A stretch of 64,000 nucleotides of DNA, taken from NCBI GenBank assembly GCA_038049695.1, contig CP142453.1, forward strand, positions 126,889,001-126,953,000, given 5' to 3'. Origin of the DNA: Cinnamomum chago (taxonomy: Eukaryota; Streptophyta; Magnoliopsida; Laurales; Lauraceae). A model generated the notes under the pieces. The model searched no databases, was not told the DNA's origin, and saw only the letters and a program-made list of their open reading frames with translations. The position numbers and the translations under genes are program-made. Below, piece after piece: positions 1 through 53,623 of the stretch (the first letter of the stretch is position 1; each line of letters opens with the position of its first letter).

Positions 1-3000
1 ATCATCAAACTTTTCGGCATATTGACATGTTGCAGATTTCCTGGCACAGCCACTCCATCACCAGGAGTGTGGGTGGATGGAGTTGAAGGTTGAGAATTGG
101 GAGAAGGGCCCACTGTGTTCCCTGTACCGGTACTGTTTGCAGCTCCAGAAGAGGTAGCCTGTTTCCTTTTTCTGCTATTCTGAAAATATAATCACCAGGT
201 TATTAATAATAACAAATACATAATCAAGCTTTAGTTGGAAAAAGAAATCAGTTCCATTGAGGAATCTGCATGACGATTGTAAGCTAATATATATGTTTCT
301 TTCTAACAGATAACTATTTGATCTAGGGATGAAAAAAAGAACGACAAGTATCTAAAAATTAAGTGCAACCTGCTGCAGTTGCTGTTGCTGATGCTGGTCC
401 TGCGGCTGCTGAATGGAAGATTGCTGCATCTGGGACATCCTCATCTAATTAAAAACCATAAGAGACTCAGAAAGATGTCATAGCAAAAACTAAAATCCAA
501 TGTCCAACTTAACACATTCAGTCGGCATAAATTAGAATATGTCAAAGCAAACACTAAAACCCTTCAATGTCCAACTTAACACATTCAGTCGGTATAATAA
601 GAATATGCATTGATTGAATCCATACAAAGTGGGCATTAGCATTTGGAGCAGATCAAATCGTCATTTATTTCACATGCGAACTCCAGATTGTGAACCAGTT
701 CAACTGGTTCGGTTCAAACTATTGCTGTAGTTTGCTTTTTTTGAGAGAGCAGTAGCTTCTCCTCTCATATTCTATACCAGCAAAACCTATGCCACATGCC
801 CCAAATAGAAAGAAAATAATATTAAACTAAAAGATCAAAATATGAGAGGCAAAGTACGTAATAAACCATATACCAACCCAAAAGCTTAAGTTAATAGGTG
901 GAAGGCCCATACAGATATATTAAGTCATGTCAAGCCTATTACTTAAGCAATGTGAGATGTGGGATGTGGGGCTTCCCAACACTCCCCCTCACGTGCAGGG
1001 CCCAACAGATTTCATGGACGGGCCCGTCATGTGAGCTTACACAAGAACAACAGGATCGGAACCCACTCTGTTACTAACCATATACCAACCCTAAAACTTA
1101 AGCTAATAGGTGGAAGGCCCATATAGATATATTAAGACATTTCAAGCCTATTACTTAGGTGATGTGGGATGTGGGACTTCCCAACAAAGTTCATATTAGT
1201 TCGCAAACTTTTGTCTATCACTCAAGAGATTCTTCAAAAGATTTTCTTTTTCTGAACAGTGGTCCTCAATAGATATTGAAAATCATAAGAATATTTGAGA
1301 AATCAGTGTGATGAAAAGGATTTAGAAATATCTAAAAAGCTGGAAACATGTCTAATAAGAAATACAAATTAAAGTCGGTAAATAAAGAAAATAAAGACAA
1401 ATAAAAAAATTATTGAACGGTAAAAACGCTGAAAACTTAAGGAAAAAAAAAACTGGACAATACATAAAGAAAAGTAAAAGACCTAATAAATAAAGCTATA
1501 TATATATATATGAAAATAATGAATGACAAGTAAAAAAAATATATTATTTATATCAAAAAGAATAAAATAATTATTTTAATGAAAGTTACCATTCAGGAAA
1601 AAAAGAATTGAAAATATAAAGAAATAACTCAAAACAGAATACAAGAAAATTATAGTATTGGACAGACACTAGAAACTTCCAATGCAGATCTTTTTAAAGA
1701 GACACAATAAGATATAGACATATATGAGATCCAAAATTTTAATTGCTTTATTTTATGAAAAGATAAAAAAAAAAAAAAAGAGGAATTATTTTAAGGGAAA
1801 TTTTTCATTAAATGGTTCAACCCAGTTTGTTGTATGGAGTTGAATGTAAGACAATGAAGAAATGACCAGAAGCCAAAGTACATGTGGCAGAGATGCACAT
1901 GGTAAGACAGATTGGTAGAAATCAGTCATAGGCCCATAGCAAAGGATAGGATTAGCTGTATGTGTTTACTCTCCTTTGAATGAAAGGAATTGATTGTATA
2001 TAGCAGGCAATTGCTCTTTTGCAAGAGAGTAATTGAGCAAAACTTGCCAACACTACAAAATTTTGTTGGCCAACTGCCCACAAAAAACTCAATGAGTTCA
2101 AAGCAAAGGTATGACATAATGTTGGCAGTCGACATCTGAGTTTCTCTGAAGGTTTTTGTGCAATTTTTCTCCATCATTATCGTCAAGGTCTTGTTCCAAC
2201 AACGTTGGGGTTAGCGTAAAATTATGTAACCCCAATCCAGTCTATCCCGAGCCAAATCCTCAGATGGGTTGCACTTCTTCAAATCTATCATTACTACTAC
2301 CACATTTTTTCTCCAATCACAGGGTAAGTAAAAACCCCCATATTCTGTTGGATGAACTGGACAGTTCTCTGTATACAGTGTTCATCTAGACCATACAAAA
2401 TTGTGACTCTTTGGATTTTCGATTTGAAATTTAACCCAGACGTGCGCTTAAACACACCTAAATTTGTGAGTGGATCTGGTTTACAATCAGAGAGTGGTTC
2501 GTAGGCTGTATATTTGGCTTGATAGTTGATATTGTTTCTACTATGAGAAGTCAGGCTCAGACTCATTTCCTACCTACATAACTATTTACTTGAATGCAAT
2601 CATATGAGACAGGGTTCTACCTGCCCACTGCCTTGATATTCTCTGAGGCATTGTATGAAATAGTGCCTCCGGAATACTCTATTGATTATTGCACAACATA
2701 AACTCATACCCATTTCAAGAGTGCAAGCTCTGATACATCTGGGATGGGACTGATATTGTTTGTAATAAATATTTATCAGTCACTGGTCATGTTTGTTTTT
2801 AAGAAGTAACTAAATTTTAATTAAAGAAAAGGAAAAGCAGAACAAGAGAAATCACCCAAATCAAAGAAGAAAAACCATCAGTAGCCAATTGATCCACCAA
2901 ACCATTTGCCACCCGAAGAATGCGCTTAAAAAGATCTTCCACCATATACACAGTTCTCTCGTAGGGATGCAAAACCGTGCTACGACTTGAGAATAAGATG

Positions 3001-6000
3001 ACTCCAATTTGCATCAAGTGGTTCAATATGTCATTAGAGGCTTGGGTGGCAACCTTTTTCTTCTTCTTCTCCCCAGATTTGCTTCTTTTTTTAATTTTTT
3101 TGTTGTGAACCACAGATCGTTAATGGGAAAAAAAAAGGAATACGAAGGAAAAGACTGAAGTCAAAGAGGGGATTTATTCCAGGGCCCCATAAATCTAGAA
3201 ATTTGATTCTGTTTCTTTCAAATTCTCAACCATCTTTCTAACAAAAAAAAAAAAAAATTTACTCAACCATCATAAGAATCATCGAAAAACTAACCTTCAA
3301 AAGAATATCAGGTTGATCTTGCGAACCTCCTCTGACCTTAGGTGAACTTGATTGAATTGGGGAACCTATAGAACCTTCATTTCCTGCCGGTTGACCATCT
3401 TTCACATTCAAGCCACCCCTAGGTAAAACCTTAAATCTCCTAGGATCCATATCTCCATAGTTAGGTGAGCTCCCAAGGTTGCCTTGTGCATGGGCCTGTG
3501 CCAGGAATTGCTGTTGCTGTTGTGGTGACAAAAGCTGGAACTGATTTTGTGTCTGCAGAAAAGGTTTTTGAACTTGTGGGCCTATATTTGGGCGCATCTG
3601 GTCGATGCCCTGAGTAAAATGAGTTCAAAGTCAAAGACGACAATTTCCAGTAAATATCTATAATGAAACTAAAAAGACACTCATAAAATTTGGTACTGAG
3701 AAGTATCAGTATGTAACTTACAGTTAACGGCCAACCCTTTAGTGGAAGACCACTGACAGCTTGGTTCAATCCTGAATTGAAGAAAGAGGCAAATAAATTG
3801 TGGTAAATCCAAAGATAAATTTAGACTCCCACAACATGAAGAAATTCGAGGTTCTACTAGAATAATGCATAGATAGGTTCGTATAATCATATAACCTTCA
3901 GATAGAACATTCCATGCAGTTTTTCTTATTATTATTATGTTGGCCAAATGGGGACATTCTATGTCAGTTTTTAAACATGATTTCATGAAAAATAAAATAC
4001 AAAGTGAAATTTCTTACATCAAACTAGGGAGTTCCTTTCTCCCTAAATTGGCTTCCCGCTGTGTTGGTAGAAAATGGTTTGTGGGGCCCTAAGAGAATCA
4101 ACCTGACTTCCCAGTTGGAAGTCCAAGTATCATGGCAGAAGAATTACTTAAATTAAAGCTTCTCTCACTAAGCTACTTGTGTATTATGTCACTTTTCAGC
4201 TGCCTTAAGCTTTGAAGAGACTTGAAAGGCCCCAGTGTGACTTCTTGTAGCAAGGGATAGAGGAGATGAGACCACGGGAAAAAAAATTGGACTAGGGACC
4301 CAACTCGGTCAGGACCGAGTCCAAGTCGACTCTGCTGAGTCGCATGGGAATTGGCCTAGTCAGGCTGAGTAGTTGGCTTTTCCTTGCTATCAGTATTATA
4401 CTGCATCTATACATTTCTTCTATTAGAAGAAAAAAAAAAAATGGCTGGAGATCTCAAACCCCTCCCAAGAAAAATCTTAGCGCTGAGAGAGAAGACCATC
4501 TCCTTGTTTGTATCCAACCTTCCTATCTCTATTTCCTCTCCCGAGTTTAAGGCAATGTTCTGCAGGGCAGGTAGGAACTTGGACTCCTCCATTCCAAAAG
4601 AATTAGCAAGCGGTAAAGACAGAGGTTTTGCCTTCGTTAGATTTGGGTTGATGAGAGAAGCGGAACTAGGCATTGAGCTGGCCAGAGGCAGATCATGGGG
4701 ACGGAGCAGGATTAACGTGCAGTAATCGAACCAAAGAAAGAAGGTAGAGTCCTCCCAGCTAGTTAATCGGCATCCATCAGAGCCCTTCCTGGGAGATCCT
4801 GGGAAATTTGTTTCCTCTTTTGATAACCCATGGTTCAACCCTCTCAAACGATTGACAGCATCCCTTGGTACCTCGCCTCAAGAAGGGTGGATTCTTCAGA
4901 GAGGAGAGTCCCCTATGGTGAGAGTGGCTCCCTGGGTGATTAAAGAAGGTAAGAGCTCCCTCACCAATAGTCTGGTTGGATTTCTTAAGCACCTAGAGCA
5001 TGGGCTGTCTAGGGTTCATACCTGGTTGGAGTATCGATGAGGGAAGCAACCTGAAAAGGTTAGGCTACTAGACCGTGGTGCGGTCTGGATGCGGTGTCTC
5101 TGAGATTGAGGCAGAAGAATTCCTACTATCCCTCAAAGATGAAGAGGAGGCATATGACATGGCGTACTGAGACTTCCTTCAATATCTCATGTGTCGCATG
5201 GGTTTTGGGTAGAGATGGAGGATGTGGATTATGGAATGCATTCAATCAGCTCATTACTCCATTTTGGTAAATGGTTCTCCAAAAGGCTTTTTTCCTACGT
5301 CTAGACTCTAGAGATCTTCGCCAAGGGGACCCTCTTTCACCTTACTTGTTTTTTTATTGTCGGCGAGGCTTTGAGTCGTATGATTGAAGCAGCAGCTGGT
5401 GGGAACCTTATCAATGGGTTTAGGACTAGCATTAATGGCCCTATAGTCAGCAATTTGGAGTTCGCTGATGACATGCTTCTCTTTTGTGATGCCGATGAGG
5501 ATGAAATTAAGAATGGTGTAAGAGTGCCTGAAGGTCATCTTCTCGCTTTGGCAGGGCTTATGGGCTGCAAGGCTAGTGGGCTTCCTTCAACCCATTTGGG
5601 GTTGCCTCTCTACATTGGTGCTCCACCTAAACATTTGTGGTCTCCGGTGATGGAAAGGCTAGAAAAGAAACTCGCTCTAAGGCTAATTATCTATCTCTTG
5701 GAGGAAGAATTACCCCTATCAAATCGGTCCTCTCCAACATTTGTGGTCTCCGGTGATGAAAAGGCTAGAAAAGAAACTCGCTCTATGGAATGCTAATTAT
5801 CTATCTCTTGGAGGAAGAATTACCCTTATCAAATCGGTCCTCTCCAATTTGCCAATATACTTCTTATCTTTATACAAGTGCCCGATGGAGAATATCAAAT
5901 GCATTGAAAAATTACAGTGGGATTTTTTGTGGCGAGGGTCTGAAGTGAAGATAAAATTCCACTTGGTGAGATGAAATCTTGTTCGCAAATCTAAAAAAGG

Positions 6001-9000
6001 GGGAGGCCTGGGAATTAAATCTATTAAAACTATGAATCAAGCTCTTCGTGCCAAATGGTTATGGCGACTCGGGGATTAGTCAGTTGGTCTCTGGAAGGAA
6101 GTGCTTTCCTCTAAATACAGTGTTGCCAGAGGAGGATGGGAGGTGCGCGGTGATTCTCATCAACATTTGGAAAGGCATCTTCTCTAAGTTCACCAACTAG
6201 CATGTGGGCAAGGGAGACAACGTTGGGGACTCTCCTTTGGCGTCCCAATTCCTAGACCTCTTCCATTGCGCAAAGAACAAAAGAACTCTTGTGCAGGATT
6301 ATGTGGAGAGAGGAGATAAATTAATATGGGGCCCTACTTTTAGAAGAAACCTCACTCATGTGGAAGAAGGTCAATTTTGCTTGCTCTTGGCTCTAATTGA
6401 GGTCTATATTCCAGTGGATGGTAGAGATTTAATGCTATGGTCTTGCTCTGCGGATGGGAGTTTCTCCGTTGCCTCTTGTTTTGCTGCTTTCAATAGGGAC
6501 AATTCAGGTGCTTCCAATATTGCCCAGTTGTGAAAGTTCAAAGCTCCTCCAAGAGTCCTCGCATTTTCATGGATAGCCTTACTTGGAGGTACTTTAAACA
6601 TTGATAATCTCCGACGTCGGAAATTGTGTATTGTAAATGCTTGCCCCATGTGTTTGGCTGACAAGGTGACAGTGGATCACCTATTTCTGAATTGTAGGGT
6701 TGCTTAGTTCCTTTGGAACTCTGTATTTAGTTGGTTTGATGTTAATGGGATTCTTCCCTCTAATCTATCTCATCTCTTCGATGTGTGGAATTTGGGAGTT
6801 GGTTCTTGTAGAGGTCGTATAATGTGGAGATTTTCGTTCGTGGCTATGTTATGGGTGATCTAGAAAGAGAGAAACAACCGATGTTTTCAAGACAAAGCTA
6901 CCAACGAGGTCCTTCTTAAGGGACAAGATTAAACATCTTGTAGCTTCCTGAGTCTCTCCCCTGGCCCCTTTTCGGGGTTTCCCGGTGGATATGATTCAAA
7001 GGAATTGTAAATAAGTGTCGTTCTCCTCTCCAACAAAGCTCAATGCCATTCACAAATGCAAACCCCCGCCCCCCCCAAGTAGTCTTAAACTAAACTTTGA
7101 TGGAAGTGCCCATGGTAACCCGGTGTGGCTGGGGCGGAAGGAATTATTGGGAACGACATAGACTGGCCCATTCTTTCCTTCTCGTGGCCTTCAGCTCAAC
7201 AAATGTTGCAAAACTACTGGCTATTGCGACCGGCCTTAGAGAAGTAAAGTGGTGGAACCTACAATTTGATTATTGAATGGGACTCTTTTTGCGCAATCCA
7301 GTGGGCCCGGGAGTTGCTAAAGCTCATTGGTGGAAGGTGGCTGGTGTGGTTGAGGAGATTTTTTTATCTTGCGAAAGGCCTTCAAGTCTCCTTTTCCCAT
7401 ATTGATCGAAGTGCGAACACAGAAGCTGCTCACCTAGCCAAGGAGGGTGCTTCTCGTCATGATTTAAGGGTTATTTTGTATCCCTTGTAATTTTGTTTAT
7501 TTCCTTTTTTGTTGTTTTCTTTTTGGCGTGGGGCTTGGGTCCATAGTTTTTTCTCTAGGCCTTGGCTTCCGGCTTTCTTTTGTTGCATAAATACAGTTTT
7601 TAACACTTCGACAAAAACCAAGAGACTACCCAATTTTACTTTCCTAACTACCAATAAACCCCGATTTTCCCACATTCCTAACAGCTTCTTTGGTAAACTT
7701 ACTTAATTAGTGAAGTGAAGTAAATGGTCAATTCAAAAGAGAAGAAAAGAAGAGGGGTCAAATCAAACGGTGCTAAATTTCAAAAAGCACATCTTCTTTA
7801 AGTCAAAAGGCTATGCCCTCATGCCATTAAATGAGAAAAAACTTTCTTCTTTCTACAACAAAAAAAAAAAGTCAAAAAGTTATCCTCGTGACAAAAAACC
7901 ATAACATGGCTTCTTTTTTTTCCATTTAGCACTTTTTAATTTGAAAGTCCCCTCTTCATATTCCCTGGGCATTGGGCAAGCAAGTAATGTTACCTGCACT
8001 GCCAAGTCCTGACTTTGACTGCGCAATTCCTTGGCTATAAATTGATGATGGATCCATGGGCATAGATCTTTGGGCTACACTCAAGTTGACATCACCTTTG
8101 ATGTCCTACAAGTTCAAAAACAATATGATATCAAATAAAAATTGAGATCATACATGGCAAAACTGATGCATCTGGAAAGGAAAAAAGAAAAATAGCAATA
8201 ACAAGAATAAAATAAAAACAAATTAAGAACTATTGGGCAAGTAGTTACAGTAGTCTGCTGAGTTCGTGCCTGCATTTGCTGCAATGCCGTAGGCACACTG
8301 CCTGGACTACCTTGAACCAACTGCCTGTGTCAGAAAGAAGAAGAACAACAGCTATTAACAACCCCATGGAGAGTTAACACAGGTGCAGATACTCTACGTC
8401 ACAAGGAACAAAGTCTAGCAAATCGAACCCTGAATGGTTGGTTGCAGATTTGATAAGGGCCATCCGATTTGCATCAAGAAGTTGCGGGGATGACTCTGAA
8501 TCCATGGAATGAGGATGTTTCATACGATCCTCGTACATTTTTGCAGCCAATCCAATAGCTGTCTGCCCTAACATTCCTTCGGGGTTCATAGCATTTATTG
8601 GCCCGCTGAGAGAAGGATGACTACCATCCCTCCGTTGCAAGTGAGCATGTCGCTGCATAATTTGCAATTGCTGCAACTGTATCTGTTGCTGTTGCTGTTG
8701 CTGTTGCTCCCTGGCTTTCATTTGCTGTACCTACACACCGCCATGAAGAAATTTTATGTTGATCTAAGACACACTGACTACCAATAAAGTCAGATGGACC
8801 CAAATATTAGGAAATGACGCTCTAAACGTCTTTGTAGAGTCACCTCAATATAAGATGCAGCCACCTCAGAATGTTTCTCATTTGTCCTTGCAATAAAGAT
8901 GTCCCAGAAGACAGACCACCATTCAAAAAGAAAGCCACCCGGCGCATCAATTGCTGCAAGGTCTCCGCAGCTAGCACAGTTACTTTTTAATATTTTAAAT

Positions 9001-27629: not shown

Positions 27630-27909
27630 TGTTTTAGTTTTGACCGATGATTTTAATTTTGACCAATAATTTTTTTCAAATATTCCACATTCTCTCTCTA
27701 ATACTCATGCAATTACCCATTTATTTTTCTTTTCATCAAATAACTCATATTTTAGTTGTTCATTTTATGTACTATTCCCTTTCTACTCCAATTTCTTTAT
27801 TTATTTTTTATGCAACTTGTCATATGGAAAGATGTAATTTTTTTTAATATATAAATTTTTATTTTGCAGTGAAGGAAGATAACATGCTGAGCCCAGGCTA
27901 TTGAGCTAG
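27630..27909 (+). mobile_element. Helitron-like repeat, copy A
   Basis: This is one of three AT-rich repeats sharing TTTTGACCGATG-like starts, AACTTGTCATATGGAAAGA in the middle and a CATGCTGAGC... terminal part ending CTAG, followed by T. The CTRR|T end after a short palindromic stretch is the Helitron 3' rule. The 5' end is uncertain. The matching copy at 35655-35933 agrees over most of its length. Confidence 0.5.
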
Positions 27910-30900
27910 TAACTATTTATTGTTATCCTAAATTGACCAACGCATATTGATCGGATTACAATAATAGGATAGTATACGTCTAAATAACATTTGATAAAAA
28001 AGACATACCCAATTCCACAAGGAAGACCGATTAATGCAAAGGTGGCTCCCTTTAATCAAAGATTTACTACACTCCTTCGATGGTTTTTTATTTGATATTT
28101 TTTTGCGATCTCAATGGGACGATCAATATTTTACTATGCAGTGGAAGGAGTTGTACTTGTGCCCCTTTAACCCTTTATAAAGTTTTTTTAACCCTCATCC
28201 CTCCATGAAGTCTTAATTAGATTAAATTTTACATTCCTCTTACAATAGATACTCGGGTTAGCCACTTTCCTTAATTAATAGAAGAGCTTTTTTTTATAAA
28301 AAGGCCCCTTTATTTTCATAAAACCTCAAAAACACCCTTGTACATTTTGTTTTTACTTCAGCATCCCTTGACTAACTGTCAAACTCAAGGAAAACAAATT
28401 GGTTGTTTCCACTTTTCCTTTTTGCAATGCTTTCCCATTTTAACCCTTGGTTAAGAATTTTTTATGATTGGAGTCCCCCCTTCTTTGCAAGACATTAGTT
28501 TGCAGGAAGAAACCACAAACAAACTCCATTGTAGTCTGGAATTTTTCTTCCCACATATTTTTCATCTCTCTAAACAAGAACATACCTCCCTTATCATATT
28601 AAAATGGTCGATTGAACTTTAATGCAAGGGTAAAATGGAAAAGCATAACAAAAGGGGGAGAGCGGAAACGGCATGTTTCTTTTTCCTTGTATTTGAGTGT
28701 GAGTCAAGGGGTGCTTAAGCAAAAAAGAAAAAGTACATGGGTGTTTTTGAGGTTTCATGGAAAGATAGGGTCCTTTTCGTAAAAAAACACTTAATAGAAT
28801 GCCTCAATGATGAGCATTAACCAACAATGGACCTTAAAATAGGTTAGTTTTGCAAGTGTTGTCAACTACATAGGCACGTGGTCATTGGGCCACACTGAAA
28901 GGCTAATCGTTGTCACACTTCCAGAGAAAATTAGCCAACTACCTTGACTTTGAGGGTTTTGTGTGTCAATGAATTGAATTAAGAGTAAGATGGGTTGAGT
29001 AGAGTTAGTTGCAAGTTCAATAAATTTTCAATAATTTGAAATTTGAAAGACATTTATTATGTCCAAAAAAGCCGACCCCAATATAGTTGGGGAGCCCCCA
29101 ATATTTAGGGGAAGGCTCTGATGATGGCTTATTTTGTTCCAAGAATTAAGATGTGAAGGAATTAAACTAACGGCAAATCACTTTTCTTAAAAATGTCCCT
29201 CCTTCTTTGCCTGTTCGCGTAAAGGCCCCTAAAAACTTATAACTAAACATGGAACCCCTTGTCATTTGTTAAAATTTACAAAATCCTTTCTCCCGAAAGG
29301 TGCAAAACAGTTGGTACAACTGAGACACTTTTTTAAGTTTTTTTTTATCTAAATCCATCCACAATTAGCCACATCAGCAAATGGAAGTGGGACCCAATTA
29401 ATACATCTCAATTTTAAAATTAAAAAAAAACTACCTCATCTTGAAACGACTCATTGAACGGATGTATCTCTCCTTTCTCTCCATCTAACCTCCTCATTAT
29501 GCCTCTCTCATTTCTTAACAACCCCTCCAAATTCTTTCTCTCCCTTTTTAATCTTAAGTCCTCTCTTAATCTCAAATATTTGGTCCTACTTGTGATACGG
29601 GATTTAATGATAGTCCCTTTTAATTGCCAGCATAACCGAAATGTGTTTTTTCTCACCTGAACAATGGAAAACCTGTACTTGTATAAAGAAGATAGTGTCT
29701 TTAATTAAATTTAAATAATATCTTGGATGGAGGCCACCAAGTTGGTCAGGAAAATAACACAACAGTGGGACGCACATTATGCATCAACACAGGTCCATCC
29801 TCCAGATGCCAATTGTGTTGTTATGCCAAAGGCGCACTCATGGGCCAGCCCATCTGGAGCCCAGCCTGCACTGGGCTGGATCTGTGCTCTATTTTCACCT
29901 GTGGGGTGTGTCTGGGCCTAATTTTAGTGGCCCAACGTTAAATGGGTCATTCACTGGTCTACACAAACTGATTAAGATGCGCTCGGTAAATGTGTTGGCC
30001 TGGCCTTGAGACTCAGCCCATGATTAGACCTGGGCCTATTTCAGGCACAAAAACTAATGGGCCTAGTTGGCTACTTAACTGGTCAAGCCCAATTTTTGTG
30101 TGAAGCACAAGTCCGTGGCCATGACAATGGAGCTGCTTGAAACTTTTGGGCCCAAATAACACAATCAGAGATGATTAAGATGCTATTGTCCAACCAATCA
30201 GATGTTGATGATGCATGAACACTTCATTGGGCTTTTTTTTTTTGTTACAAACAATATTTGGGGGCATGCTGTGTCCAAGTAAAATTCTAAAATGTTCAAG
30301 GAAAAATTACATTCTAAAATCTATGATTTTGGCAATTCTGCTAGCAATGTGACTTACATGGCTGTCATAGTAAATTCTCATCCTCTAAATCAGTCAAACA
30401 AAGAATTTAAGATTTCCTCATTAAGAGTTCGAGACAATGTGAATCCCTTTGAGAAATGCTTGCAATCAAACAGTCGGGCCTTTGGGAATCATAGTGCCCT
30501 TGCTGTGGATAATGTAGCCCGCAACCACAACTTCACCTACGGAATAAAATCTGGGTGGGCAACCATTAAGCCAATTGAGAGAAAAATGTAAGTTTTCAAA
30601 AATGTATAAAACTTTTGGCTGATTTTAAAAAAAGTACTTAAAATTTTAAATATTTCAGAAGAGCACAATAGCTTTCCATATTACCTTCAGTAAGATACTC
30701 TTTAGGAAAAAAGTTTAAATTTAATAAAAATACTCTTATGTCATTTTTAAAATTATTATTAATAAATCATATAAAAGAAGTAATCAAGTCAAACTCAAAT
30801 ATGACATAATGGGCCCCACTTCAAATTAAAATACTTGATTTTGGGAGTAAAATAGTTCGATAAAAGAAGAAAACTTGTCCTGTCATAAAGGAAAGATATT

Positions 30901-35654: not shown

Positions 35655-35933
35655 TTATAATATATCCAGTTAAGCGGTTTTGGCTTTAATTTTGACCATC
35701 GGTTATAATTTTGACTGACGGTTATGTAACTATTCATACAACTATCCACTCATTTTTCCCATCAAACCACTCATGTTTCAATTGTTCATATGTAACTATA
35801 CACTTTTTGCTCCAATTTCTCCAATTCTATTTTATCCAACTTGTCATATGGAAAGACGTAAATTTTTTTAATATGAGATTATTTATTTTGTAGTGCAGGG
35901 AGAAACCATGCTAAGCACGAATAATTGGGCTAG
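35655..35933 (+). mobile_element. Helitron-like repeat, copy B
   Basis: This is the best preserved of the three copies. It has TTAATTTTGACCATCGGTTA near the start, CAACTTGTCATATGGAAAGA in the middle and CCATGCTAAGCACG at the end, terminating CTAG (35930-35933) before T. The 5' end is probably the TC at about 35661, after an A, but this is not certain. Confidence 0.5.
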
Positions 35934-37108
35934 TACCGGTTATTCTAGGATCCTCAAACGTTGTACCTCAAAGAGTTATTAGGTAATATATTTTGGCAAG
36001 CAAATTCTTTGAGATTTCTCATTTGCTTTTTCAAAGATTTGAAAAACCCATGTGGACCATTGTAAATCATAAACGATTGAACAAGTGAAATTCCTCACTT
36101 TTGTGGATTTATAGATTTGAAATTCTTCACTTTTGTGGATTTATGCACTAATGCTAATTTTTTGTTAGCTATAGCCATCGATGTACACCAATATCAATAA
36201 GAAATCCTCATTAAGGAATTCTTAAATCGGCGAATTTCTCACCTATTACCAATCGTTGATCAAGTCATGAGGCACATCGAATCTAAACTATTTAGAATCA
36301 CATACTCGTCTAGTTTTTGGGCCAAATTTCACTCTACCATAGGCTAGGCCTGCTGTCATGTTGCAATCACCTTAATTTGACACCAAACATAAGCAAAATA
36401 TCAATTCAATTTAGAAATAAAAGCACTTAAAATATCTTTAAATTTGACTCAAGGGTTGAGATTAGCTGTGGCCAATAGGAATATTTGGCCCACTTTTTAA
36501 CTTCAACTCTCCATGAACTATCGCCCAAAAAAAAAAAAAAAAAAAAACTCTCAATGCATAATCAACTCAGGAGCAGCACACTTTAAAGTGCGTCAGAGTC
36601 GAGAAATCTCTGTAAAATTCGTTACGAGTGTAGGCATGGATTTGAGAATACCCTATTCAATTGAGCCCAGGTTCGCAGAAGATGACTCACAGATTAAGGT
36701 GCCCATGGTATCTCTATTTTCAAGGTCTATATGTCTTAAAGTGATTTTATACAGATGTTTCTGAAATTTAGTAATTAGAGTTGGCAAACGGGTCGGGTCA
36801 GAAGTGGAGCCCACTCTTTGGACTCAACCCGTAACTGACAAATTTTTTAAATGGGTTGAAAACCTGCAGCCAGCACCCGTAATGACTCGAGTCGGGTCAA
36901 CCCACTAAAATTTTGATGGAAGTGGCATATCTAATAAGCCTATTAAGTTTGATCACTACCGTATTAACCTCGATTACTTTTTTTAAGCTCTGAAAATTAC
37001 TCGCACACCCACAGGCAACCAAAGTCTCTAAATAACGTAGTTTTTTTTGTGGAGAGGGACCTATTAGTGGATAGGGCACTAATATGTTAAACCATGTGTT
37101 TACTAATT
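35934..37108. other. Intergenic, no gene seen
   Basis: No gene recognised. A poly-A run lies at about 36527-36546. A segment starting AGTTGGCAAACGGGTCGGGTC at about 36780 looks like one hAT-type end, but no partner end was found. Confidence 0.5.
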
Positions 37109-50395: not shown

Positions 50396-50400
50396 AGATT

Positions 50401-50518
50401 TGTTGTGAAGTCCCACATCCCACATCGCCTAAGTAATAGGCTTGACATATCTTAATATACCTGTATGGGCCTTCCACCTATCAGCTTAAGCTTTTGGGTT
50501 GGTATATGGTTTATTACA
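50401..50518 (+). repeat. Left 118-bp LTR
   Basis: Starts TGTTGTGAAGTCCCACATCC and ends GGTTTATTACA, directly before the primer-binding site. It differs from the right LTR at only a few bases. Confidence 0.92.
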
Positions 50519-50705
50519 TGGTATCAGAGCATATGATCCTGGGAGACCCATCTATATTTGTCACCCTTTCTCTCCATTTGTCATCCTGACAAGTGCTATA
50601 GTGTGCTGGTGTGCGACAACCTGCTGCCTGGTTAGCCATTCATCTGTCCACACACATCTGGTGTTGCATTCTTCTTGCTTTTATATTTCCATATTGTTTT
50701 CTTTA

Positions 50706-51143
50706 ATGGCTGGTACAAGTTCAACACCTCATCTCTCGTCAGGAACAATCTCTATTTCTAATATTGCTAGTTTGATTTCAATCAAATTAGACCGGGACAA
50801 TTATTTGCAGTGGAAAAGTCAATTTGTTCCTATTCTTCGAACAAACAAATTGCTCAAATATGTTGATGGTTCAGCTGAATGCCCGGCACAGTTTTTCAGT
50901 GATAAGGATGGTAAAATAACCACCACAATCAACCCCGCATTTGAGCTTTGGGTTGAACAAGATTCACTTGTTTTGTTATGGATAAATGCAACTCTCACGA
51001 CCCCTGTTCTTCAAAGGGTCGTTGGCCTTCAGTCTTCTCTTGAGGTGTGGCAACAGCTAGAGAAATTGCATTTGATTCAGTCTCGGTCACGTGTGTTGCA
51101 ATTAAAGCAACAATTTCAGAAACTTAAAAAGGGGGAATATTGA
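50706..51143 (+). pseudogene. Copia-type gag fragment (UBN2-like), 145 residues
   Basis: Starts MAGTSSTPHLSSG. It continues with the classic copia gag features ISIKLDRDNYLQWKSQFVPI, AFELWVEQDSLVLLWINATL and the helical SLEVWQQLEKLH...SRVLQLKQQFQKLKKG. Normal copia gag goes on for a further 100-200 residues to a CCHC knuckle; here the frame stops at LKKGEY. The TGA stop at 51141-51143 is the first triplet of a 72-bp repeat. An upstream in-frame ATG at 50499 lies inside the LTR, so 50706 is the likelier start. Within its 145 codons the frame is open. Confidence 0.85.
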
Positions 51144-51436
51144 AAAGTATTTCGCTGCCTCTACTAATGCCTTGAGATTTTGGTAGGAATGACCAGCTAA
51201 AGAAATTCAATATGGTATCAGAGTCAACCGGTCGTGAGTTCGAATCCCATGAGGAACGACTCGGCGCAAAAAAAAAAAAAAGAATGCGTGTCACCAAAAG
51301 TGCGCCGGCCGAGTTCCACCTGAGGGGGAGTATTGAAAAGTGGGCTCCACCTAAGGGGGAATATTGAAAAGTATTTCCGCTGCCTCTACTAACACCTTGA
51401 GGTTTTTGTAGGAATGGCTAGCTAAAGAAACTTACA
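51141..51436 (+). mobile_element. Nested mini-LTR pair (72 bp each) inside the TR-GAG element
   Basis: Two 72-bp direct repeats, 51141-51212 and 51365-51436, both begin TGAAAAGTATTTC and end near AAAGAAA. Each is preceded by AGGGGGAATAT and followed at once by TGGTATCAGAG, the initiator tRNA-Met binding site (51213 and 51437). Between them lie a poly-A run, GGGGGAGTATTGAAAAG and GGGCTCCACCT, a partial third start. This looks like a second, smaller TRIM-type unit. No target duplication around it could be identified, so recombination is as likely as insertion. Confidence 0.75.
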
Positions 51437-51529
51437 TGGTATCAGAGCGGATTTCGATCCCGTTGTTCTTGTGTAGTACACGTGACATGCCCGTCCATGA
51501 AATCTGTTGTGCTTGTACGTGAGGGGGAG

Positions 51530-51647
51530 TGTTGGGAAGTCCCACATCCCACATCGCCTAAGTAATAGGCTTGACATATCTTAATATACATGTATGGGCC
51601 TTCCACCTATCAGCTTAAGCTTTTGGATTGATATATGATTTATTACA
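51530..51647 (+). repeat. Right 118-bp LTR
   Basis: Starts TGTTGGGAAGTCCCACATCC and ends TGATTTATTACA, directly before the AGATT duplication. Same length as the left LTR. Confidence 0.92.
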
Positions 51648-51652
51648 AGATT

Positions 51653-53452: not shown

Positions 53453-53454
<2 letters not shown>

Positions 53455-53623
53455 GAATGTTCATATGCATCCATCCCTCACCATAAGGTGAGGGATGCTT
53501 CCATAAATGGGGGGTTTCAAGTACACCCTATGTACTTGAAATCCCCCTTTTGTACTTGAAACCCCCTATTTATGGAAGTATCCCTCATCATAGGGTGGGG
53601 GATGGATGCATATGAACATTCCC
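53453..53623. mobile_element. Foldback MITE, about 171 bp, nearly all inverted repeat
   Basis: The left arm GGGAATGTTCATATGCATCC is matched exactly from the right end. Pairing continues through CATCCCTCACC-type, CTTCCATAAAT and GGGGGTTTCAAGTAC blocks, leaving a short loop near 53530. It sits inside an AT microsatellite, consistent with a TA target (Stowaway/mariner-like), but the target site cannot be resolved in the repeat. No coding capacity. Confidence 0.85.

Follow-up and report, generated by a model that had tools for sequence, protein, structure and literature searches.

A 1.25-kb mosaic element within one target duplication

The window, that is the whole 64-kb stretch of the Cinnamomum chago genome analysed here, contains a retroelement of 1247 bp at positions 50401-51647. 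A duplicated AGATT (50396-50400 and 51648-51652, 5/5 match) bounds it as target-site duplication (TSD), and all its parts lie on the plus strand. Its outer LTRs form a pair of 118 nt, assigned below to family A: the 5' copy (50401-50518) and the 3' copy (51530-51647) are identical at 113/118 positions, with 5 differences (95.8%, K2P 0.044). On these ends a preliminary description of the locus was correct. Inside the single TSD, four LTRs or LTR parts alternate with three interiors.

The 11-mer TGGTATCAGAG, which we take to be the usual plant primer-binding site (PBS) for initiator tRNA-Met, occurs exactly at 50519, 51213 and 51437 and nowhere else in the window. The expected number of exact matches is 0.03 for the whole window on both strands, and 0.0003 for 1.25 kb on one strand. 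Each of the three sites lies directly 3' of an LTR end, as had been noticed. A tRNA scan of the 64-kb window found none, and the mosaic element had no match in Rfam.

Following the 5' LTR, PBS 1 (50519-50530) leads into the leader of a Copia family, C (50531-50705; shorter than the leader of C copies), and then into the 5' part of its copia-type gag (50706-51133). The latter, read from 50706 through 145 codons, runs on into the next LTR and matches PF14223 at profile positions 4-93 of 172, plus PF14244; it is 96% identical to C copy L002/L031 over the 425 nt compared. No match to this gag was obtained in a prokaryote collection or in viral contigs. A purine tract, AAGGGGGAA (51129-51137), precedes B1 (51138-51212), the last 75 nt of an LTR of a further family, B. 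PBS 2 (51213-51223), the TRIM-B interior (51224-51321) and the TRIM-B purine tract GAGGGGGAG (51322-51330) come next; a 29-letter piece of this interior had no match among viral contigs. B2 (51331-51436) is a full-length family B LTR of 106 nt. Behind it lie PBS 3 (51437-51448), the TRIM-A interior (51449-51520), the TRIM-A purine tract (51521-51529) and the 3' LTR.

The purine tracts end at 51137, 51330, 51361 and 51529. That such tracts precede LTR-like starts had been noted before, and this stands, with the qualification that the tract at 51353-51361 is itself part of the B LTR. The gag fragment, also noted before, had led to a comparison with TR-GAG elements, which have a gag open reading frame besides their LTRs, PBS and purine tract. 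In the mosaic, gag extends over about half its length and, where it is fused to the B LTR, breaks off at PF14223 position 93 of 172; the mosaic is therefore not a TR-GAG, and we rejected that class.

Three parent families in the source genome

We searched the source genome (1.06 Gb, 14 contigs) and found all three parents, TRIM-A, TRIM-B and Copia C, as separate families.

Plain TRIM-A has the order LTR118-interior-LTR118 at 25/25 loci (L052-L076), some of them with a truncated LTR. Another plain copy lies in the window itself (858-1186, minus strand), with most of its PBS deleted and the flanks AACTT and TACTT. With its 118-nt LTRs and a total of about 330 bp, the family falls under the definition of a TRIM, its TSD being scored for the window copy. 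Elsewhere (G000, C1:103892303-103892764), ends of family A LTRs lie at three places spaced by about 200 nt, all in one orientation, and these coordinates suggest a tandem TRIM-A array.

TRIM-B is present in many copies, as LTR-interior-LTR and in longer arrays with between three and five LTRs, whole or in pieces (e.g. L010, L018, L020, L021). Its LTR had been described as a separate type of 72 bp; this sequence is part of a 106-nt LTR (51331-51436 in the mosaic, with TA..TA ends in other copies), and a plain LTR of 72 bp was rejected. The B LTR holds a second purine tract (51353-51361), followed at 51362 by a repeat of its own start, from which a 75-nt form is counted. We scored TSDs at 27 B loci without A, leaving out the B locus L034. 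An exact 5-bp TSD accompanies the 106-nt start at 11/27 (L044 and L045 look like one duplicated locus) and the 75-nt start at 4/27 (L022, L023, L026, L042), while 12/27 have it at neither. As exact TSDs go with both forms, both plus-strand starts of the TRIM-B LTR appear usable. The LTRs of 106/75 nt and the exact TSD at 15/27 loci place TRIM-B, too, under the TRIM definition. A and B are similar at the PBS and the purine tract only, apart from two short matches that carry no weight.

The Copia family C has LTRs of its own: in copy L031 they lie at about 3152-3366 and 8088-8312, with the PBS directly after, and match neither A nor B. For this reason we dropped the idea that the gag is a part of family B. 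A different Copia is found behind an A LTR: at L080 33-150, an A LTR (97%) and its PBS stand directly before a leader and gag frame (L081 73-933; PF14223 8-170 of 172) unlike those of C. The 3' end of this element was looked for and not found. It is either the partner of TRIM-A or another hybrid.

Junctions

The joint of A and C falls inside PBS 1, and the stretch shared by the two families is the PBS itself. Nearly all aligned A copies end at 50529-50532, that is at the end of the 12-nt PBS, and the match to C begins at 50514. Three A rows run further, to 50539, 50546 and 50557; L080 is among them, continuing into another Copia leader. Among the best 40 of 1243 candidates scored, only the window spans this joint.

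In principle the mosaic could have arisen by deletion from a large autonomous element of family A that already had two PBSs, B being inserted or captured between them, as Gao et al. propose for rice OsajLTRA10 and its TRIM. The duplicated 25-bp PBS-bearing sequence around the coding part of OsajLTRA10, as reported in the relevant section of PMC4717578, speaks for this, and so does the A LTR with PBS ahead of a Copia gag at L080. We consider it very unlikely, since the gag of the mosaic derives from C, which in L031 has unrelated LTRs, and since no copy combining an A LTR with C, other than the window's, appears among those same best 40 candidates.

At the joint of C and B, the best C copy stops at 51133 and B begins at 51129, the overlap being AAGGG (51129-51133); another C copy reaches 51138 at 95%. 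This joint, too, is spanned by the window alone (best 40 of 1012 candidates scored). It coincides with the inner purine tract of the B LTR, and locus L037 offers a parallel: there a 5S-like sequence is joined at the same tract.

The joint of B and A lies in the last LTR bases before PBS 3. There the B LTR ends in CTTACA, which is A-like: 57/61 A ends hold TTACA, and an A-type end occurs at 1/76 other B LTR ends checked, that of L079, which likewise precedes an A interior. The switch in the window thus took place a few bases 5' of the PBS. L035, L036, L077 and L078 retain the B-type LTR end, with the switch at the PBS or past it. The combination B_LTR-PBS-A_int was found at 6/40 scored loci, window included (best 40 of 1586 candidates).

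The preliminary description had proposed a genome search for further copies of the whole element and of two of its junctions. The 1247 bp as a unit were found at their own locus only (best 40 of 3512 candidates scored), and among these there is no sign that the mosaic itself has moved again. The junction searches came out differently from one another, as the B/A joint at 51437 recurs and the C/B joint around 51140 does not, each within its scored candidates.

A target duplication around the B block had been named in advance as the mark of a plain later insertion. We found no exact 5-bp duplication at any of 100 combinations of start and end, and rejected the reading that TRIM-B inserted into a TRIM-A element already carrying gag, with small deletions afterwards. 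In favour of this reading, TRIM-B is common and integration-competent. Such an insertion is hardly credible all the same: besides the missing duplication, the right end of the B block meets the TRIM-A PBS exactly, the LTR on the left of the block breaks off at the inner purine tract, and the B_LTR-PBS-A_int joint recurs at five other scored loci.

Other A/B mosaics and their integration

Eight A/B mosaics were seen: the window, L033, L035, L036, L037, L077, L078 and L079. Four of the eight (window, L036, L037 and L077) have an exact 5-bp TSD, and L033 and L079 match at 4 of 5 positions; L035 and L078 are truncated and their TSDs not scorable. The chance level is 0.001 for an exact match and 0.016 for four or more.

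L078 repeats the plan of the window without C, namely A_LTR-PBS-B_int-B_LTR-PBS-A_int-A_LTR, with the 3' LTR cut. Three loci, L036, L077 and L079, have an inverted order: in them B_LTR-PBS-A_int-A_LTR stands as its reverse complement and adjoins a B_int-B_LTR unit; in L036 this unit has kept its A_LTR. Accordingly, L036 carries both reciprocal hybrids, A_LTR-PBS-B_int-B_LTR and B_LTR-PBS-A_int-A_LTR. In L036 and L077 an A LTR at one end and a B LTR at the other lie inside one exact TSD, which shows that an A/B mosaic is able to integrate as one unit. L033 consists of a B TRIM with A pieces after it. In L037, one TSD encloses a B TRIM that contains an A TRIM as well as about 100 nt resembling 5S rRNA. 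This piece (L012 1797-1896, the same locus, minus strand, between the B and A parts) matches RF00001 with 73.5 bits from model position 1, and is either captured 5S RNA or a piece of a Cassandra LTR.

An assembly artefact joining repeats seems next to negligible in probability. Every component of the mosaic is a repeat, but the element is just 1.25 kb long with an exact TSD, and three other A/B mosaics have exact TSDs as well.

Trees were built for the A parts (34 rows, 7 of them mosaic; L037 was dropped because its match to the A interior is below 60 nt) and for the B LTRs (74 rows, 13 mosaic). The A-part tree of 34 rows gives no sign of a single origin of the mosaics: it has 6 label changes against 6.5 in shuffles, with 23/31 inner branches open. 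In the B-LTR tree the mosaics cluster beyond the shuffles, with 9 changes against 12.1 and 4/500 shuffles as low, to which pairs from the same locus lying together (L036, L077, L079) probably contribute. The B2 LTR of the window groups with an LTR of L033 with modest support. In view of this clustering, some of the mosaics may partly share their descent.

LTR divergence and a possible later exchange

The outer LTRs of the mosaic (95.8% identical) are no more alike than unrelated A LTRs, the mean identity being 94.9% between loci and 96.1% within loci. Their similarity does not demonstrate that one was copied from the other, and, with unrelated A LTRs nearly as alike as paired ones, we do not press a dating by LTR divergence. 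B1 and B2 differ at 9/74 sites, inside the range of unrelated B copies; the excess of their divergence over that of the outer LTRs is marginal (Fisher p 0.049, and 0.20 without the last 10 columns).

These values bear on an alternative history, in which a plain TRIM-A inserted first and made the AGATT duplication, and DNA carrying B and C, for instance an extrachromosomal circle or a tandem copy, later recombined into its LTR end and PBS. The added block would then lie between two copies of a 17-nt repeat, TTACATGGTATCAGAGC, comprising LTR end and PBS, and such copies flank it at 50514-50530 and 51432-51448, so both outer joints could stem from a single crossover with a circle. B does occur in tandem arrays, and the TSD fits both histories. 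For the window locus a later exchange at the repeat is on these grounds possible, the outer LTRs being no closer than unrelated ones. We nevertheless regard it as unlikely. Chromosomal exchange has little homology to work with in 17 nt. Moreover, C copies have a C LTR and no B LTR before their PBS, so the circle itself must have been a C/B mosaic. Finally, such an exchange fails to produce the inverted L036 and L077, with A and B ends in one exact TSD.

Probable joining during reverse transcription

The element combines parts of three families, namely two unrelated TRIMs and a larger Copia that contributes one piece, and two of the joints lie at the shared PBS or beside it. The best explanation is that unrelated RNAs were joined during reverse transcription via their common PBS and then integrated as one unit, to which we give a probability of about 0.72. 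The preliminary description had likewise seen here a template-switch mosaic integrated as one unit. What stands of it is the existence of the three parents as separate families, the position of the junctions at sequence that the families share, and the other A/B mosaics with exact TSDs of their own; its weaker part is the integration of the window locus in one step, given the possible exchange at the 17-nt repeat.

In the proposed course of events, RNAs of A, B and C would have been co-packaged and reverse-transcribed in one particle. The minus strand would begin on TRIM-A RNA and copy the 3' LTR, the purine tract and the A interior. At the joint of PBS and LTR end it would move to TRIM-B RNA, where it would copy one B LTR, then the B interior and a portion of another B LTR. 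A full LTR between a purine tract and a PBS is absent from a single normal genomic RNA, and the model consequently needs either a tandem B transcript or repeated end-to-end R transfers as the source of the second B LTR. At the B purine tract, a switch via AAGGG would lead into the gag of a Copia C RNA, with synthesis running to the C PBS. Ordinary plus-strand transfer would then pair the A LTR-PBS strong-stop with the C PBS, yielding A LTR-PBS-C leader; the A/C joint needs no more than such a transfer landing on a C minus strand. The A-LTR ends would let integrase insert the mosaic once, creating the AGATT duplication.

The parents, the junctions with their positions and overlaps, the TSD and the recurring A/B mosaics with TSDs are observed; co-packaging, the order of strands and the completion of all joins before integration are what we infer from them. 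A hand-over at the PBS during reverse transcription accounts for mismatches of LTR-PBS-interior in both directions. Both reciprocal products in L036 are expected if the plus-strand strong-stop of each family annealed to the minus strand of the other. Against this explanation, the complete mosaic was met a single time, as were two of its three joints, and the TSD and LTRs of the window are neutral between integration as one unit and later exchange at the 17-nt repeat. Such cross-family mixing, as the A/B mosaics suggest, recurs in the genome.

A broader reading is possible, which we put forward tentatively and with more doubt than confidence. In this plant, the initiator-tRNA PBS common to unrelated Copia-like families may act as a modular joint: particles would hold RNAs of several families (two TRIMs, a Copia, perhaps 5S rRNA), LTRs and interiors would be swapped both ways, and the resulting elements, some of them inverted and bounded by U5 ends from two different families, would integrate repeatedly. 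In that case TRIM LTRs could capture coding interiors, and duplicated-PBS elements such as OsajLTRA10 may be gains instead of TRIM sources.

It is largely unknown which elements supply the particles that mobilise TRIMs, and larger relatives were found for 11/289 TRIM subfamilies in the survey data given by Gao et al. 2016 (PMC4717578). The mosaic is a record of RNAs that may have shared one particle, and it singles out as candidate helpers Copia C and the element at L080. Should the PBS prove to be a general joint, LTRs would pass between unrelated families along a predictable route, and recombination across families could then be tested by scanning genomes for mismatches of LTR-PBS-interior.

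Comparison with known systems

Our searches of the open-licence literature turned up no description of TRIM mosaics joining several families at the PBS. Re-shuffling of Cassandra in sugar beet is reportedly the subject of an earlier paper. Template switching in LTR retrotransposons is established, as passages of PMC1950507 and PMC5668417 set out. Among the closest likenesses are the template-switching complexes of Sabot & Schulman 2007 (PMC1950507), which share with the mosaic an internal LTR and a 5-bp TSD and are explained there by switching between co-packaged RNAs. In that account the outer LTRs are highly similar; those of the mosaic are 95.8% identical, against an average of 94.9% for unrelated A LTRs. 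It places formation inside a virus-like particle and asks for two complete cores; the mosaic has the A and B interiors, and its C core is cut within gag. The complexes as described join related elements of one family at R, whereas the mosaic joins unrelated families at the PBS and purine tract, includes a truncated Copia gag and measures 1.25 kb.

Tandemly arrayed TRIMs, in the part of Gao et al. (PMC4717578) devoted to them, likewise alternate between LTR and interior inside a single TSD, and two TRIMs in inverted arrangement with a TSD are shown there as well. The arrays as figured belong to one subfamily, whereas the mosaic alternates A, B and C; being of one family and non-coding does not describe it, with A and B unrelated outside PBS and purine tract and with the C gag fragment. 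The same source presents OsajLTRA10 (TRIM OsajRetroS10) with the two-PBS layout of the mosaic, LTR-PBS-coding block-second PBS-TRIM interior-LTR. As presented, and unlike the mosaic, it encodes a full Copia polyprotein in that block and lacks a second LTR family; it is interpreted as the source of OsajRetroS10 by deletion.

Cassandra also forms TRIM arrays, for which the corresponding section of PMC7215508 proposes both LTR recombination and template switching; unlike the mosaic, those it describes consist of nearly identical units of a single family. Tandem LTR retrotransposons of plants lie within one TSD, read as a single insertion at one rice locus analysed in PMC11899658; according to its description of them, these are copies of one element sharing an internal LTR, unlike the mosaic. 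For ONSEN in Arabidopsis, recombination in reverse transcription followed by integration was shown experimentally in work presented in PMC5668417, and in this it resembles the course proposed for the mosaic. The recombinants treated there arise within one family and nearly always from two parents; the mosaic needs three families, which counts against the explanation proposed for it. We see in it a variant of template-switch complexes and tandem TRIMs, whose novel part, as far as our searches of the open-licence literature go, is that unrelated families are fused at the PBS, along with the truncated Copia gag and inverted products that include both reciprocal forms.

Two further repeats were noticed in the window. 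At 53453-53623 lies an inverted repeat of 73 nt, 92% complementary, with 25 nt between its arms, possibly a small hairpin element. A direct repeat of 141 nt with 79% identity occupies 27771-27911 and 35795-35935, 8 kb apart.
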